This document shows, in pieces, positions 2 through 14,269 of a DNA stretch of 64,000 bases (positions are counted from its first letter, which is position 1; each line of letters begins with the position of its first letter). The position numbers and the translations under genes were made by a program. The DNA is taken from assembly GCF_002847505.1 (NCBI RefSeq), contig NZ_MXAV01000036.1:1-64000 (forward strand), in the 5' to 3' direction. Origin of the DNA: Acidithiobacillus marinus. Its GTDB lineage: Bacteria; Pseudomonadota; Gammaproteobacteria; Acidithiobacillales; Acidithiobacillaceae. The notes under the pieces were generated by a model. That model saw only the letters and a list, made by a program, of their open reading frames with translations, did no database searches and was not told the origin of the DNA.

Positions 2-745
2 ACAAAAAGACTCCAATTGGTATTAAATGTTCCTCTTGTTTATCGACAGACTACTTATGAGATTGGTGGGGAGGGCGATGCCAGTAATGCATTGGGACAG
101 GCGACAGTGACCACACATGGTCCAAGGCTAGGTGACATCAGTTTCGGTGCATATTACCAATTGCTCACTGAAAGTAAAAACTGGCCAAGCCTGACAGGAA
201 GTTTGTTGCTCACCGCTCCTACCGGAATAAATCCTTATGGAATAAAAACTTATCAGCCTGATGGGAATAACAGTAATTTGACAGTGCCCACAAGCCTACC
301 CACTGGTAACGGGGTTTGGACATTGAATCCTAGCTTGTCTTTTGTGTCCACCTCTGATCCGGCTATTTTTTTCGGAAGCGTGGGTTATTATTACAATTTG
401 AACAGGAACTTCCCCGATGTGAGCACTACACCAGATGTTATACAGCCCGGTCAGATCGCTTTAGGAAATGCTTTCCAATATAGTTTAGGTGTGGCCTTTG
501 CGCTCAATGATCGTTTGAGTTTGAGTACATCTTTCGCTGATAGACTTCAAAGCGATACTAAAATCCGGACTCCAAGTGGAAACTGGTCGGCTATTGTCGG
601 CAGTGGAGCTAATGTAGCAGAAGTTAATGTGGGAATGACTTACGCGTTTACTCCCAAAACATCATTGATTTTGAATCTGGCGGCAGGCATGACCAGCAGT
701 GCCCCCAGTTTTCAGCTTACCGCAACTATTCCTTATAACTTCTAA
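2..745 (+). CDS. Outer-membrane beta-barrel protein, C-terminal part (possible Fap secretion pore)
   Basis: The frame is open to the left edge of the window, so the true start and any signal peptide are missing. About 247 residues are visible. They are built of alternating polar/hydrophobic strands with Gly/Asn/Ser-rich turns and end in the aromatic NF typical of proteins inserted into the outer membrane. The style resembles the family often annotated as phenol-degradation MetA-like transporters, to which I tentatively relate the Fap amyloid pore FapF. It converges on the Fap-like operon, its stop lying 4 bases from the stop of the last gene. The FapF role is inferred from position; it could be an unrelated porin. 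Confidence 0.6.
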   Translation, partial: TKRLQLVLNVPLVYRQTTYEIGGEGDASNALGQATVTTHGPRLGDISFGAYYQLLTESKNWPSLTGSLLLTAPTGINPYGIKTYQPDGNNSNLTVPTSLPTGNGVWTLNPSLSFVSTSDPAIFFGSVGYYYNLNRNFPDVSTTPDVIQPGQIALGNAFQYSLGVAFALNDRLSLSTSFADRLQSDTKIRTPSGNWSAIVGSGANVAEVNVGMTYAFTPKTSLILNLAAGMTSSAPSFQLTATIPYNF

Positions 746-749
746 CGTA

Positions 750-1517
750 TTATTGAATGCCTCTCATAGTATTGAGAATAGCCGGTAATTCTGCGAGCTG
801 CGGGGCGGTCGCTTTCGCAGGATTGATACCCAGCGTTAAGGACATTCGATTCTGTATATTATTCATATTACTTTTCACTTGGGAAATTTGATAAAGACCG
901 TTTGAGCCAATCCCTTGTCGGATGCTGGCCCCTTCGCCACTGAGGGCCATGGATAACTGTCCTGGCTGCACGGTCAGTGTAACTCCATTTATACTTTGTT
1001 GTCCTGCTGTTATTGCTGTGCCAGTGTTGACATTATTGGTTGGTGCACCATTGATGACGTTCAACGATAATTTGTTCTGTACGCTGTTACTGGTCCCGCC
1101 TATCTGGATAGCCTGTGTTACTCCGTGGGTATTATTGAGTCCCTCACCATTGATTGAGTTGTTGCCTGATGATATTTGTGACGCAGGTATTTTGCCGAGT
1201 GTATTATAGGTTATCGTAGGTTTGAAAATATTTCCCTGGCTATTCAGGGCGATATTCATAGTGCTTTGCATAGTTGATTGGTCATGGGGAGATGTCCAGT
1301 TAGTCTGCATTTGTACCCCAAAATAGACAATGGTGCCGCCAATAACGCCACGTCCTATGATCTGAGATAAAGTTTGATCAGTTACTGTCTGTACATTTAT
1401 GCTGGTCATAGGACAACTAAGTGTCACGGCAGATGCTACTGGGCTGGCCATCAACCAGGACAAGCTGACACAGCAACCTAAAAGTCTGGCGGATTGATGT
1501 ACTTTGTATGTCATCAT
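750..1517 (-). CDS. fapE: Secreted FapE-like protein, last gene of the amyloid operon
   Basis: The start is the ATG at 1517, preceded by a GAGG Shine-Dalgarno; the frame runs further upstream without another good start. The 255-residue product has a signal peptide ending near ASPVASA. It then carries the segment VTDQTLSQIIGRGV (residues 45-58), a stretch with YFGVQMQTNW, and an Asn/Ser/Gly/Gln-rich body with several NN..QN..SL units. This layout fits FapE, a minor component of Fap fibrils in Pseudomonas, but the match is from memory of family style, not an alignment. It lies 37 bases downstream of the C39 peptidase-like gene, presumably on the same transcript. Residues 45-58 resemble a segment of the first gene product of the operon. 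Confidence 0.5.
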   Translation of the reverse strand: MMTYKVHQSARLLGCCVSLSWLMASPVASAVTLSCPMTSINVQTVTDQTLSQIIGRGVIGGTIVYFGVQMQTNWTSPHDQSTMQSTMNIALNSQGNIFKPTITYNTLGKIPASQISSGNNSINGEGLNNTHGVTQAIQIGGTSNSVQNKLSLNVINGAPTNNVNTGTAITAGQQSINGVTLTVQPGQLSMALSGEGASIRQGIGSNGLYQISQVKSNMNNIQNRMSLTLGINPAKATAPQLAELPAILNTMRGIQ

Positions 1518-1554
1518 TTTGTGAGTCCTCTCAAGAAGTGACCTGCTTGTTGAT

Positions 1555-2265
1555 TTAGAAATAACTGGCTTGATCAAAACCAAAATGTGCGGGTTTGAGT
1601 ATTGATTTTGGCCATATGCCATGAAGGAGTTTAAGCGCGCTGGGGGGCTCTGGTGGTGTCAGGAGCACTGAGTGTGGCTCAAATCCTTTACCAAATACGG
1701 CAAATACAATTTTGTTCCAGTCCTTCAAAAACATACTTTTAGGCATGATGCGATTACCTAGTGCCGGGTCGGCAATATAAACATTTCTTGGGCCCGTTTT
1801 TTCGAGAACTACGAAGTGTTTGTAGCCGCCTAAATCCAGGAGAACAATAACCGGGATGTGAATTTTTTCCAGCTCGGCGGAGTCGACAAAGTAACCTTCT
1901 CCTTTCAAGCCGATCTTGTCTACATAGCGTTTCAAGTCAAGCATGGAGAAGCCGACTTTTTTAACCTCAGTTGGATTGCTCACGGTGAAAAGACCTTTAA
2001 TGACCTCTTCTTCGTCAACATTCTGACCAAATGCGTATTTCAATATGGTTGCCAAGGAAGCCGCACCACAGGAAAAATCAGTGTGTTGCCGCACAACATG
2101 GATAAAATGCATCTCAATCATATTCTTGACTGGCAAGTGGATGATGCCTGCGCCTGGAATTGCATTTCCGAAGGCTGCTGCCTTCACAATGTTACTTTGA
2201 ACCATAAAAAAAACCGCAATGAGCATTATGGCGAGAAGCATGAAAGGACGGGTAGTAGAAAACAT
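1555..2265 (-). CDS. fapD: Exported C39-family peptidase-like protein (FapD-like)
   Basis: ATG at 2265 with a GGAGA site. The 236-residue protein begins with a hydrophobic signal/anchor (residues 8-31). A stand-alone peptidase C39 domain follows, without the ABC transporter usually attached to bacteriocin-processing C39 domains. The expected catalytic residues are visible: Cys66 in FSCGAAS, His150 in GGYKHFVVLE and Asp166 in YIADPALGN. In Pseudomonas, FapD is exactly such a periplasmic C39 protein, needed for Fap amyloid export. Its place between the FapC-like and FapE-like genes reproduces the fapC-D-E order. This is the strongest single piece of evidence that the locus is a Fap system. Confidence 0.75.
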   Translation of the reverse strand: MFSTTRPFMLLAIMLIAVFFMVQSNIVKAAAFGNAIPGAGIIHLPVKNMIEMHFIHVVRQHTDFSCGAASLATILKYAFGQNVDEEEVIKGLFTVSNPTEVKKVGFSMLDLKRYVDKIGLKGEGYFVDSAELEKIHIPVIVLLDLGGYKHFVVLEKTGPRNVYIADPALGNRIMPKSMFLKDWNKIVFAVFGKGFEPHSVLLTPPEPPSALKLLHGIWPKSILKPAHFGFDQASYF

Positions 2266-2295
2266 ATTTAAATCTCCAGCCAAGTCGTGTAAAAC

Positions 2296-2315
2296 CGCCA
2301 CCCCGAAGGGTGGCG
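2296..2315 (-). terminator. Intercistronic hairpin between fapC-like and fapD-like genes
   Basis: A perfect 8-bp GC-rich stem, CGCCACCC/GGGTGGCG, closes on a UUCG tetraloop in the minus-strand transcript and is followed by GTTTTA. It lies 16 bases after the fapC-like stop. The short U-run suggests partial termination or 3'-end protection rather than full termination, which would leave the fibril gene expressed above the downstream genes. Confidence 0.65.
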
Positions 2316-2331
2316 AAATCTTAGACGAAAC

Positions 2332-3663
2332 TCAGCGGGTAACGCTGGCGATGGCTAAGGAGTTTACCTGCTGGTTGTTATTACCGGAGGCAACATTCAG
2401 TCCGATGTTTCCAGAAGCGCCCCGCAATGCATTACCATCTACGGTGCTGGTGTAGGTGGAGTTCAGGCTACCACTGGTGTTGAGAAGTGCTACCTGTTCG
2501 ATGGGGGCAGTTGCGGATCCCATTGCCTTCGCTGATGCGATAGATGCTATAGCCAGACCATTTTGTTGCTGATTCTGGGAGCCAGAAGCCACGTTGATGT
2601 TGATGTTACCACGAGCATTCTGGGCCGCATTTCCACTCAGACCTGCGCCATCGGTTACATTGGTATCGGATGTGGCATTTCCCATTTGCAGCTGGTTGGC
2701 ACTTGCAGTCGCTTCAGCGTAATCCGTATGATAGACGTTATGACTGTCCTTGGTGGCGCTGATCGCGGTGGCGTTGGTTTGCTGGTTGCTGTTGCCAGAC
2801 GCAAGATTTGCCCCAATGTTTCCAGCAGCTCCTGTCAGGGCATTTTCTCCAAGGCCGGCAATGTTTCTGCTGTTTGTCTGATCCCAGTAGAGCGGAGCCT
2901 GCATGGTACCGTTGCTACCCATGGACTGCGTGTTATCCACAGAAGCTATTGCCCCAACGGAGAAGTTTTCACGGTTTTTGTTGGTTGTGTAAGCAACGGA
3001 GAGATTGTTACTTTGCTGATTGCTGATGCCTGCGGCTTCATTGACACCGATATTGCCATCTGCATTACTGAGTACGTTGCCGTAAAGACCAGTATTATTA
3101 CTGGCATCCGCTGATTGACCGAAATTCGCGGCACTGAGGTTCATGTTTGAACCAGCAACCTGCATGGCCGACGTAGTTGCAAGAGCACGGTTAGAGTAAG
3201 TGCTGTAAGCAGTTGAAAGGTTATTTTGTTGCTGATTGAAAGTGCCTGAGGCCATGTTGACGCCAACATTGCCTGCGGCACCTGACAATGCATTACCGGA
3301 CAAACTCACCAAGTTGGCGCCATTCATGACTGAGTAGGCATAATCCAAATATTCCTGTTGATTGGCGCTAACTTTTGCAATGGTATTGGCAGAAGAGGTG
3401 ATATTACTGTCTGAAGACAGTGATCCAGCATTGCCCTGCTGATTTTGAGAGCCGGTGGCGATATTGATGCCGACATTGCCTGACGAACCTGCAGCAGCGT
3501 TGCCGCTGAGAATGGAATCCGTATTGCTATTCCAGACAGATTGCTGTGCATTCATAGTGCTGAGCTGTCCATTATCGACATTGGCTCCAGCAAAAGCCAG
3601 AGGGGAAAGGCACAATGCCGCTACGGCCAAGGCAATGGGGCTGAATTTACGAGATGTTTTCAT
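2332..3663 (-). CDS. fapC: FapC-like major functional amyloid subunit with six imperfect repeats
   Basis: ATG at 3663 with AAGGAG upstream; 443 residues. A Sec signal peptide (ending near LAFAGA) is followed by six copies of a roughly 30-residue unit. Each unit has the form GNAL.GA.GNIG.N.ASG..NQQ.N, and the units are separated by linkers of 25-50 residues rich in Asn, Ser, Thr and Ala. The conserved Gly/Asn/Gln positions match the amyloid repeat of Pseudomonas FapB/FapC; Pseudomonas FapC usually has about three repeats and long linkers, so six is high. No cysteines and no C-terminal CxxC are present, unlike Pseudomonas FapC. Proposed role: the main fibril protein of a biofilm or mineral-attachment amyloid. 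The C39 neighbour supports the call. Confidence 0.72.
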   Translation of the reverse strand: MKTSRKFSPIALAVAALCLSPLAFAGANVDNGQLSTMNAQQSVWNSNTDSILSGNAAAGSSGNVGINIATGSQNQQGNAGSLSSDSNITSSANTIAKVSANQQEYLDYAYSVMNGANLVSLSGNALSGAAGNVGVNMASGTFNQQQNNLSTAYSTYSNRALATTSAMQVAGSNMNLSAANFGQSADASNNTGLYGNVLSNADGNIGVNEAAGISNQQSNNLSVAYTTNKNRENFSVGAIASVDNTQSMGSNGTMQAPLYWDQTNSRNIAGLGENALTGAAGNIGANLASGNSNQQTNATAISATKDSHNVYHTDYAEATASANQLQMGNATSDTNVTDGAGLSGNAAQNARGNININVASGSQNQQQNGLAIASIASAKAMGSATAPIEQVALLNTSGSLNSTYTSTVDGNALRGASGNIGLNVASGNNNQQVNSLAIASVTR

Positions 3664-3709
3664 GATGATCTCCTTAAGTGGAAAAAAACAACAGTGAAAT
3701 AAATACTAC

Positions 3710-4150
3710 CTAGTGAAGCACACCCGGGGCTATCCCAAGTGCAAAGCTATTTGCTGAAGTGTTGCCAGATCCTGAAACCTGATTGATCTGCACAATACCT
3801 GCAGCACCCTTGAATGCTGTGGCAGTAATTGCCACAGTATTAAAATCGCTGGATGAATCCGTTGTGGAAGCCTGTTTAGGGAGGGCCGTGACACTTTGTG
3901 CCAAAATGCTATTGGGTACTGGCTTTGTGGCTCCCATAACCATGTTAATACTATTGATTTGTGTATTTCCGCTACCAGCAACTTGATTGATAGTAATGAC
4001 ACCCTGGCTGTGAGCAAAAGCGTTATCTCCGATGATGCTGTTAGATTGAATATGAGATGGCTGCTGAGGGGCTGCTGAGGCGGCATCCATGTAAATGCCA
4101 CTTAGTGACAGAACTAATCCCATAAAAATGCCTGCTGATAATTTTCTCAT
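3710..4150 (-). CDS. fapB: FapB-like minor amyloid subunit with two repeats
   Basis: ATG at 4150 with GGAGAGGG upstream; 146 residues with a signal peptide (cleavage near DAASAAP). Two repeats of the Fap type are visible, around GVITINQVAGSGNTQIN and GIVQINQVSGSGNTSAN, joined by a Ser/Thr-rich linker. The repeats are closer to each other than to those of the following six-repeat protein. In Pseudomonas FapB is the nucleator that precedes fapC in the operon, and the order here is the same. FapA is an alternative name for this gene; the assignment between A and B is not secure. Confidence 0.55.
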   Translation of the reverse strand: MRKLSAGIFMGLVLSLSGIYMDAASAAPQQPSHIQSNSIIGDNAFAHSQGVITINQVAGSGNTQINSINMVMGATKPVPNSILAQSVTALPKQASTTDSSSDFNTVAITATAFKGAAGIVQINQVSGSGNTSANSFALGIAPGVLH

Positions 4151-4179
4151 CCTGTACACCCTCTCCAGCTGATTACAGA

Positions 4180-4584
4180 TCACCGGTTAGCCATCATGCT
4201 GATGCTTTGTAGATTATTTCCACCGCCCAATTCAATAGAGCTTTTACCGCCGCCAGAGCGATTCTGCAGTTCATCCCAGAGGACAACGCTGTTGCTGTTA
4301 CGGGTCACAGTGGGTAAATTGACTGGAACACCCTTACCAGCAACTTCCCCAAGCATTTTGTCAGACAGGGTGTTGTTATGCCCGATGAATGGATCTGCTT
4401 GTGCGGCTTCAGAAGAACTTTTATTAAAAACTTTTTGTTGAATGATTGTGCTCGTTATTTTTAAATGATTTGTTTTCTGCACGGCAGTTCCTGCATGGGC
4501 AAAACCTATGCACAGCGTCCCGCACAAAAGACCCACCAAGAATGATGAACGTTTATGTTTGAACAGAACTTTTTTAGTATCCAT
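4180..4584 (-). CDS. Small secreted protein, first gene of the Fap-like operon
   Basis: 134 residues from ATG 4584, with a long basic N-terminus and a signal peptide (cleavage near FAHAG). The mature part contains LSDKMLGEVAGKGV (residues 73-86), which looks like the double-glycine leader motif recognised by C39 peptidases except that the last pair is GK. A Gly/Ser-rich tail (RSGGGKSSIELGGGNNLQS) follows. It starts about 29 bases after the predicted sigma-54 transcription start and its stop region lies close to the next gene start. FapA is possible by position. I recognise no confident family; export and a regulatory or chaperone role in fibril assembly are inferences. Confidence 0.55.
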   Translation of the reverse strand: MDTKKVLFKHKRSSFLVGLLCGTLCIGFAHAGTAVQKTNHLKITSTIIQQKVFNKSSSEAAQADPFIGHNNTLSDKMLGEVAGKGVPVNLPTVTRNSNSVVLWDELQNRSGGGKSSIELGGGNNLQSISMMANR

Positions 4585-11407: not shown

Positions 11408-14269
11408 TTAATCCGTATAACTGCCAATCCATTCCTGCCAGATGCGGCGCACTTGTTGGGAAGCGTCCTGCAAGGCGTCCCAATGCGCGCTGTCATCTGC
11501 ATGTACGTTATTTTCCTGCAAATTCAGCCAGCGTTCATTTTCTACTTGCCGGTAGAGTTGCCAGGCATGCAGCAATACCGAACCATGTTGTTTATCCCAT
11601 ATACCGGATTGCATCAAGGCACGGATGGCTGCAGCGGTTCCGGTATTCTGACATAATTCGGGCTTCAGCGGGCAAGCGCCTAGCATAGCAAATTGTACCA
11701 GAAACTCGATATCTGTCAGTGCGCCCGGACTGAGCTTCAGATGAAATGCCCCCGACGCTATGTTTTTGTGATCAAAAATGCGCTTGCGCATGTCCCTCAC
11801 GGCGCTTTGTAAGGTATTGGAGTCACGGGGGTTACACAGGATTTCCTGGCGGAGGGTTTCAAAATGCGCCCCCAGTTGCGGATCTCCGGCTACCCAACGG
11901 GCCCGGGTCAGAGCCTGGTGTTCCCATACCCAGGCAGACTGCTGCTGATAGCGACGGAAGGCTTCCAGACTACTGACCAAAGGCCCCGACTGACCGCTGG
12001 GGCGCAGGCGCATGTCAATCTCGTAGAGCACGCCCGCGCGGGTCAAGGTGCTGAGGAGGTGGATGAGCCGTTGTCCGAGGCGGGCAAACCAGGTGGATGC
12101 GAGGAGGGGAGACGGCCCGTCACTCTCAGCATCGGGTGGAGCATCATAAATGTAGATCAGATCAAGGTCCGAGGCGAAGCCCATTTCCTGTCCACCCAGC
12201 TTGCCCAGGGCGATCACTGCGAAAGCCGCCGCGCGGCCATCTCGGGCGCAAATACGACCATGGCGCCGCTCCATCTCCTGTTGGGCCCAGCCCAATGCGG
12301 TCTGTAGCGTTAATTGTGCCATAGTACTGAGTTGGCCCAGCAGATCCTCCACGGGTAATTGTCGCGTCCAGAAGCTGGCGGCAAGGCGCACCTGTTCGCC
12401 ATTTTTGAAGCGCCGCAGGGTATCCATGCGTTCTTCCTGGTCTTCCGCATAGGCTAGCTGGGTATGCAGAATACTGGGCCACTCCCCGGAGGGTTGCTGC
12501 TGGCTGAGCACCTCATCCAGCAGCACAGGAAAACGTGCCAGTTGTTGGGCTAGCCAAGGGCTGTGCAGCAAGGCACTGCAGTGCTCAAGATATCGGGGGT
12601 TTTCGGCTAGGAGCGCGAGGTAATTGGCTTTGCTGAGAATGGCTTCAAGCAGGTTCAGAAAATGCAGGAGGAGGGCGTCTGGGTTTTCTTCCTGCCCGCA
12701 TATATCCAATATCTGCGGCAGCAGGTGATCCAGACGGAGTCGTCCTGTTGTAGAAAGGCGCGATGAGACATCCCGGCTATGGGCAAAGCGCCAGAGCCGC
12801 GTCCAGATTTCGGAGGGACTGGAAAAATGCAGGCTGCGCAGGATCTCGTCGGGGAGGATGTCCTGAGCATGGTTCTGGGCGTGATACCAAAGCTGCTGTC
12901 CTTTTTCGGATTGACCGTGAAGAGGCTGATCCTGGGGTGCCAGGGTCTGTACAAAAATCGAATGCACTTGCTGGCGCAAATGGTCCAGTTCAGTGCGAAA
13001 GCTTTCCACATTCGGGTAATGCATAGCGCAGGCCAGGCGTTGCCATTCGCGGTCGCTGTTCGGCAATTGCTGGGTTTGCTGATCCTCCACCATTTGCAGG
13101 CAGTGCTCGGCATTGCGCAAAAACAAGTAGGCCTTGCCCAGTAATTGAAAGTCTCTTTCGGGCAATAATCCCAGTTTATGTAAGGTATTGAGAGTGCTGA
13201 GGGTATTGCTATCCCGTAATTGTGGATGGCGGCCACCGTGAATAATCTGCAAGGACTGACAGATGAATTCAATTTCACGGATGCCGCCCTGGCCTTTTTT
13301 GATGTCCTGACGACTTTCGCCCTGCTCCGCATCCATCAGTGCTTTGACCTCACGCAGTCCTTGCAAGGCGGTAAAATCCAGATAGCGGCGATATACAAAA
13401 GGCTGAAGCATTTCCAGCAACTGTTTGCCGAAGTGCGCGTCTCCCGCTACAGGTCGGGCTTTGATAAAAGCATAACGCTCCCAGCTCCGTCCATGTACCT
13501 GGTAGTAATGCTCCATAGCGGCAGCGCTGATGCACAGAGGGCCGGCATCCCCGAAGGGGCGCAGACGCATATCCACGCGAAAGCAGAAACCTTCTGCCAG
13601 TGGTTGGTCGAGACTCTGAATCAGCCAGCGTCCCAGACGACTGAAATATTCACTGTTATCGAGAGGACGCGGACCATCGCTACTACCGTTTTCGCTGAAG
13701 CAGAAAATGAGATCAATATCCGAAGAAACATTCAGCTCTTTTCCACCCAGTTTTCCCATGCCGATGACCGTGAAAAATACAGGTTTACCCGTTGCAGTCA
13801 TCGGTCGCCCATGCTTTTCTTCGAGTAAGCTCAGACCGTATTTACAGGCTGCTTGGAGGCAGGTTTCGGCCAGAATGCTCAAGGCCGCTACGGTTTTCGG
13901 CATTTGCTCGCCGGCTTTGCGGTCCTCCCAGAGGATTTCGACCATCCGCGCATTGCGATAATGGCGCAGGGCGCTGTTGAATACATCTGCGCTGCTGTGA
14001 TGCAGAACAGGAAACGGAGTTGTTTTTCCTTTTGCCAGTGCGAGCACGTGTGCAGGATGGCGTTGCAAATATTGGCGAGAAAAAGGGCTTATGCAGGCAA
14101 GCTGCAGCCAATGCCGGAAAAAACTCGGAGGACAGGCCATCAAATCCTGGCGCTGCTCGGTCGATAAGGTTTCCCAGATCAACTGCACCATCTCTGTAAG
14201 GGCATCCTGATCTACCGGAGTGGCCGCGAGATATTGGGTGAGCATGACAGGTAAAGTACTTTTGGTCAT
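11408..14269 (-). CDS. glnE: Bifunctional glutamine synthetase adenylyltransferase/deadenylase
   Basis: 953 residues, full length. It adenylylates and deadenylylates glutamine synthetase in response to nitrogen status through PII. The two nucleotidyltransferase domains are clear: the N-terminal one with GMGKLGGKELNVSSDIDLIF and the C-terminal one with ALGKLGGQEMGFASDLDLIY, each carrying the G.G...SDxD metal-binding motif. Helical regulatory segments lie between and after. It heads the operon with ilvE and the zinc-finger gene. A canonical PII gene is not in the window; the CPII at 44.8 kb is a carboxysome-type variant. Confidence 0.97.
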   Translation of the reverse strand: MTKSTLPVMLTQYLAATPVDQDALTEMVQLIWETLSTEQRQDLMACPPSFFRHWLQLACISPFSRQYLQRHPAHVLALAKGKTTPFPVLHHSSADVFNSALRHYRNARMVEILWEDRKAGEQMPKTVAALSILAETCLQAACKYGLSLLEEKHGRPMTATGKPVFFTVIGMGKLGGKELNVSSDIDLIFCFSENGSSDGPRPLDNSEYFSRLGRWLIQSLDQPLAEGFCFRVDMRLRPFGDAGPLCISAAAMEHYYQVHGRSWERYAFIKARPVAGDAHFGKQLLEMLQPFVYRRYLDFTALQGLREVKALMDAEQGESRQDIKKGQGGIREIEFICQSLQIIHGGRHPQLRDSNTLSTLNTLHKLGLLPERDFQLLGKAYLFLRNAEHCLQMVEDQQTQQLPNSDREWQRLACAMHYPNVESFRTELDHLRQQVHSIFVQTLAPQDQPLHGQSEKGQQLWYHAQNHAQDILPDEILRSLHFSSPSEIWTRLWRFAHSRDVSSRLSTTGRLRLDHLLPQILDICGQEENPDALLLHFLNLLEAILSKANYLALLAENPRYLEHCSALLHSPWLAQQLARFPVLLDEVLSQQQPSGEWPSILHTQLAYAEDQEERMDTLRRFKNGEQVRLAASFWTRQLPVEDLLGQLSTMAQLTLQTALGWAQQEMERRHGRICARDGRAAAFAVIALGKLGGQEMGFASDLDLIYIYDAPPDAESDGPSPLLASTWFARLGQRLIHLLSTLTRAGVLYEIDMRLRPSGQSGPLVSSLEAFRRYQQQSAWVWEHQALTRARWVAGDPQLGAHFETLRQEILCNPRDSNTLQSAVRDMRKRIFDHKNIASGAFHLKLSPGALTDIEFLVQFAMLGACPLKPELCQNTGTAAAIRALMQSGIWDKQHGSVLLHAWQLYRQVENERWLNLQENNVHADDSAHWDALQDASQQVRRIWQEWIGSYTD

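Follow-up and report, generated by a model that had tools for sequence, protein, structure and literature searches.

The first and last genes of a minus-strand fap operon encode exported proteins, FapX and FapE, which share a short motif that is probably a second leader, recognised by the C39 peptidase FapD of the same operon with cleavage after G-[KR]. Conservation of the motif, its spacing, the presence of two motif proteins per system, the genomic linkage and the intact C39 active site are direct observations. The operon, which is of the Acidithiobacillus type, lies in the window (the whole stretch of 64,000 nucleotides that was analysed) in the order FapX, FapB, FapC, FapD, FapE (Table 1), and its closest named relatives are found in Acidithiobacillus species. 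It contains repeat subunits of the FapB/FapC type, a FapD with an intact active site, FapE and a FapF that is truncated by the contig end and runs convergently to the rest of the operon. The convergent orientation fits the published separation of fapF from the main operon in some genera (PMC3792158). The NCBIfam matches of the Fap genes are significant yet below the cut-offs (for FapD, 222 bits with NF058616 against a cut-off of 330), as expected for distant members. Signal peptides were called by eye, and scans for promoters and terminators yielded no excess over shuffled sequences.

Table 1. Features of the fap operon in the window and coordinates of FapX relatives; a slash marks the predicted cut.
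Feature	Position	Strand	Basis or remark
FapX (name coined here), first operon gene	4180..4584	-	134 aa; alignment with relatives
FapX architecture			Sec signal peptide (by eye), variable pro-region, motif, conserved VVLWDE, short G-N-Q-rich tail
Leader-like motif in FapX, LSDKMLGEVAGK/GV (positions -12 to +2)	4327..4368	-	
FapB, minor fibril subunit	3710..4153	-	NF058557, E=1.4e-17, under curated cut-off
FapC, major fibril subunit	2332..3663	-	NF058558, E=5.7e-42, under curated cut-off
FapD, exported C39 peptidase	1555..2265	-	PF03412, E=3e-23; NF058616 (NCBIfam FapD), E=6e-66
FapD C39 active-site Q, C, H, D	codons 2086-2088, 2068-2070, 1816-1818, 1768-1770		
FapE	750..1517	-	255 aa from ATG at 1517; NF058559, E=1.3e-22, under curated cut-off
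Leader-like motif in FapE, VTDQTLSQIIGR/GV	1344..1385	-	
FapF C-terminal part, outer-membrane pore	17..745	+	NF058560, E=6.8e-80, positions 183-420 of 420
FapX relatives	L049:8001-8444 and 12269-12703; L050:3910-4254; L060:9757-10251		

The original prediction had located the two peptides at residues 73-86 of the first product (LSDKMLGEVAGKGV) and residues 45-58 of the last (VTDQTLSQIIGRGV), aligned them without gaps and placed a C39 gene between their genes, all of which was borne out. In the register of C39 leaders G-[KR] occupies positions -2 and -1, and both peptides, like those of the tabulated relatives, have hydrophobic residues at -12, -7 and -4 and Gly at -2. The structural consensus of such leaders is L-12 xxx E-8 L-7 xxxx G-2 G-1 (PMC6959990), the pockets of LahT accept V-4, L-7 and L-12 (PMC6363468), and in PCAT1 and LahT the leader touches the enzyme through -12, -7, -4 and -2 (PMC6959990, PMC6363468). 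The proposed closeness to a double-glycine leader holds for the spacing of these four positions, but not for -1, which is Lys in FapX and Arg in FapE instead of Gly. Because the cleft of C39 enzymes is narrow, they require a small residue there (PMC6959990, PMC6363468), and the non-canonical Lys/Arg or Gln speaks against a cleaved leader. The register also puts the predicted cut after G-[KR], one residue earlier than the originally suggested cut after G-[KR]-G. In Acidithiobacillus FapE the GG of VIGG offers another conceivable cut site, which we rejected since the matching -7 position is not hydrophobic and the GG is missing in Pseudomonas.

Orthologues, from which the motif should be absent if the original prediction were wrong, do carry it: no FapE examined lacks it, nor do the relatives of FapX. 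For FapE we compared eight Acidithiobacillus-type loci and the window with all Fap loci L041-L059, and found the motif in 29 of 29 Fap-type gene sets, window included. Among the 28 FapE sequences outside the window, 26 have Asp at -10, and not one departs from Leu/Met at -7, Gly at -2 and Arg/Lys at -1. The motif is likewise present in all 12 aligned FapX genes (Leu at -7 and Gly at -2 in 12/12, Lys/Arg at -1 in 11/12), although the length of the pro-region is highly variable.

The first gene had implicitly been taken for a FapA, which proved wrong. Two NCBIfam FapA models (NF058617/NF058556) recognise Pseudomonas FapA (E=1.9e-56 and 1.6e-33) but do not match the first gene of the window, ruling out this identity, and the alignment with relatives points to a separate, small and unnamed family. 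No Pfam or NCBIfam model matched FapX, and a recognisable FapA is absent from the window. Relatives of FapX occur in Acidithiobacillus, in G086 (two copies), in G312 and in G322; they have the motif and a V-x-LWDE block in common, and none matched a known family above its cut-off. In G322 (L060) FapX is followed directly by a model-recognised FapA, showing that the two are distinct. Of 398 genomes, 5 match a FapX profile strongly, all of them with a FapD-like gene as well, and the match in G383 (L068:10816-11133), where the motif is weakened, lies outside the rows on which the profile was trained. FapX is a candidate seventh fap gene. The G383 locus (L068:10816-11423) appears to be the remnant of a fap operon, in which FapX is followed by an open reading frame that begins like FapA and ends like FapF, and in G086 (L049) the fap operon is duplicated in tandem.

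For a statistical comparison we built a position-specific matrix from 19 FapE sequences outside Acidithiobacillus and scored proteins minus their first 20 residues against 20,000 shuffles. The matrix picked exactly LSDKMLGEVAGKGV and VTDQTLSQIIGRGV as top sites in FapX (p=0.0018) and FapE (p=0.0001) of the window; p was 5e-5 and 0.0056 for the two G086 copies of FapX, 0.0041 for that of G312 and 0.001 for that of G322, with weaker values for FapX of L008 and L009 (about 0.06). The suggested search of the FapA and FapE families had a divided outcome: every FapE examined carries the motif, but with the FapE matrix most Pseudomonas FapA proteins scored no better than their shuffled versions, so that Pseudomonas FapA is a possible rather than a clear motif carrier. 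FapA of Pseudomonas and relatives (L041-L055) contains a stretch LSDxD[FIY]xx[VIM]x[SA]G with equal spacing and Ser/Ala at -2, which might represent a form of the signal that is not cut.

On the side of the enzyme, the active-site Gln, Cys, His and Asp are invariant in 40 of 40 FapD-like proteins, and the FapD-like profile matches the LahT C39 double-glycine protease (6mpz, E=4e-15), PCAT1 (4ry2, E=1.3e-10) and ComA (2e-7). In FapD, Met/Leu stands at the position of one of the two hydrophobic-knot residues of PCAT1 (A55, I59) and Lys at that of the other; this Lys, as aligned, counts against a leader cut by FapD. Two FapD positions track the classes, Thr/Ala versus Tyr/Phe two residues past the active-site Gln and Asp/Glu versus mostly Asn six residues before the His, but a pocket account of the -1 specificity was abandoned, both positions being confounded with phylogeny. 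FapD is periplasmic and its target has been called unclear (PMC5557850, PMC6173800); substitution of the active-site Cys (C38A) abolished secretion of FapC (PMC5557850). Across the 398 genomes, FapD is encoded next door in 21 of the 21 that have FapE. The neighbours of a FapD-like gene in Jeongeupia (L010) gave no match to the motif patterns.

The FapD model also picks up C39 genes outside Fap operons. In 14 of 14 such loci (L061-L074), termed RGG-type here, the FapD-like gene is flanked by two motif-bearing proteins, some of the sites having been identified by eye in genes whose predicted start lay too far upstream. They share one layout without FapB/FapC, in which the C39 gene stands between genes for a small exported protein and an E-like protein, often preceded by Asp/Asn-rich repeat proteins. 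The small upstream motif protein often ends in viQNTGNnv.iQ, and no family model matched those of the flanking motif proteins that were tested. The downstream E-like protein reads RGGF, a true double glycine, in all 14 loci, so that a small residue, Gly, does occupy -1 in these relatives; RGGF is the only fully invariant block in the alignment of the family, and Leu at -7 is nearly invariant. An E-like profile gave strong matches in 15 of the 398 genomes, all 15 with a FapD-like gene, and these include three loci that were not used in building it (G255, G284, G294). RGG-type loci are apparently an undescribed family of C39 loci; in G138 one of them is duplicated in tandem (L062:4488-9870).

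A third branch with a related signal is formed by FilA-like proteins (Pfam DUF6160), which in the 19 loci read carry [LM]D[DN]xx[LM]xx[IV][ST]GQ directly behind the signal peptide. DUF6160 occurs in 10 of 398 genomes, and a FilB-like free-standing C39 gene is present in 8 of these 10 versus 0 of the 388 others (p=3e-15, no correction being made for relatedness). Of the two DUF6160 genomes lacking it, G186 looks like a false match. Most genomes with DUF6160 have several dispersed copies (L088-L117). The FilC model also matches FapF proteins. The original proposal of a recognition or processing signal in exported Fap components is supported by the motif in every FapE, in FapX relatives and in E-like proteins beside FapD-like peptidases, with cleavage as its putative outcome.

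We infer the binding, the position of the cut and the effect on export as follows. FapX and FapE would be exported via Sec, and signal peptidase would then expose a short, variable pro-region. The hydrophobic residues at -12, -7 and -4 would dock on periplasmic FapD as a short helix, and G-[KR] would enter the active site for a cut after Lys/Arg, between K84 and G85 in FapX and between R56 and G57 in FapE. The predicted products are a 50-residue FapX and a 199-residue FapE with G-V-[PI] as new N-terminus, and cleavage of FapE would probably be a licensing step for export of the fibre through FapF. Published tryptic mass spectrometry detected no FapE peptide within the first ~70 residues (PMC5557850). 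In FapE of Pseudomonas relatives -1 is residue 39-41 and the next tryptic peptide, starting from residue 42-47, is mostly long and hydrophobic, which, as judged from these relatives in place of UK4, is consistent with the reported gap. As -1 is Lys/Arg, where trypsin cuts anyway, a natural end at this position would be hidden from tryptic mass spectrometry. The published requirement for the FapD Cys and the missing FapE N-terminus fit a leader cut by FapD. An AlphaFold model of a tethered FapD-FapE, for which the L008 genes were read through in frame (TGA as Trp, table 4), reached a pLDDT of 40, and FapE alone 37, both of low confidence.

The likeness of FapX and FapE could in principle be fortuitous, and several tests bear on this. 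A pattern drawn only from the literature, [LIVM]xxx[EDQ][LM]xxxxGx, was found in Fap loci in 22 of 115 genes near C39 versus 7 of 193 distant ones (p=1e-5) and in non-Fap loci in 14 of 71 versus 10 of 169 (p=0.002), relatedness being ignored in both; a wider pattern, shaped by FapE sequences, occurred in 31 of 115 versus 2 of 193. In the 2.9-Mb genome, a motif profile that includes the window clade found only the FapX and FapE sites at E<=10, of which only the absence of other matches is informative since rows of this clade trained the profile. Without the Acidithiobacillus rows the profile had no match genome-wide at E<=10, so that the case for the motif rests on conservation across relatives. 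Chance could account for this profile missing both peptides, each of which is short and degenerate, but not for a position that is conserved among orthologues as well as in partner genes from many genera that show little similarity otherwise. Judging from the sequences of these relatives, a coincidence is extremely improbable and may be regarded as already refuted: the motif is shared by FapX and FapE more than by chance.

If the motif is a genuine signal, it might still remain uncut and serve for docking on FapD, which would then be a holdase or gatekeeper, or on some other periplasmic part; the essential cleavage by FapD would be of something else, for example the FapF linker. Lys/Arg or Gln at -1 would suit such a bound peptide, inactive C39-like domains that bind substrate exist (PMC5557850), and FapF in two loci has a motif-like stretch past the coiled coil, clear in L059 (LAPDDLVTMRGRYR). 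We nevertheless consider docking without cleavage rather unlikely, given that the catalytic residues are kept throughout the FapD-like enzymes, that the RGG-type site is a true double glycine and that the only N-terminus wholly absent from tryptic mass spectrometry is that of FapE (PMC5557850). The FapF stretches (L059:8085-9500 and L058:3293-4726) also bear on the earlier proposal of FapF cleavage by FapD. Less probable by far is an old structural element, inherited by the N-termini of FapX and FapE from a common ancestor and unrelated to the peptidase. The FapE residues past the motif (GG.IVYFGV.M.TNW) are strongly conserved too and could be part of a fold; however, FapX and FapE are alike in the motif only and not downstream of it, DUF6160 and the small upstream RGG proteins carry it as well, each beside a C39 gene, and its spacing is that of C39 leaders.

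A FapD-cut leader can be compared with known systems. Pseudomonas Fap (fapABCDEF) and the window have FapB, FapC, FapD, FapE and FapF homologues in common, with the motif in FapE of both; they differ in that the window has FapX in first place, no recognisable FapA, and FapF convergent at the far end. The double-glycine leaders of C39 ABC transporters (PCAT1/CtA, LahT, ComA) resemble the Fap motif in the hydrophobic residues at -12, -7 and -4, Gly at -2 and identical spacing, and their C39 enzyme is homologous to FapD with the same active-site residues. Unlike in these transporters, which combine an N-terminal leader with a cytoplasmic, ABC-fused enzyme, the substrates of the Fap, RGG-type and Fil systems have a Sec signal first, the Fap motif standing behind it, and the enzyme is exported and free-standing. 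The putative Fil pilus (FilA/DUF6160, FilB C39, FilC) parallels Fap in its free-standing C39 and a Sec-exported protein with L-D-D-xx-L-xx-V-T-G-Q, but its DUF6160 copies are dispersed, several per genome, and no amyloid repeat subunits were recognised. The residue at -1 is Lys/Arg in Fap, Gly in RGG-type E-like proteins and Gln in Fil.

FapD activity is essential for secretion of Fap amyloid, while substrate and site have been described as unknown (PMC5557850, PMC6173800). In the open-access literature FapE and FapF have been named as possible targets, without a site (PMC5557850, PMC12822426); according to a 2025 review, FapF and the N-terminus of FapE are believed to be processed by FapD (PMC12822426). 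FapE as a FapD target is an existing hypothesis; what is new, judged against the open-access literature, is the site with its C39 register, the recognition of FapX as a further carrier and the connection with the RGG-type and Fil systems. The motif predicts the exact bond in FapE for FapD and names FapX, which is absent from the fap gene lists published in the open-access literature, as a second putative substrate, and one signal links Fap, Fil and the RGG-type loci. The chances are about even that free-standing exported C39 peptidases represent a general two-step export in Gram-negative bacteria, Sec followed by a periplasmic C39-type leader, the branches of which would differ at the cut residue; each Fap or RGG operon would supply two dedicated substrates, and a genome with Fil several dispersed ones. 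For the fap operon itself, the shared tag offers a specific, testable answer to the question of what its protease acts on.
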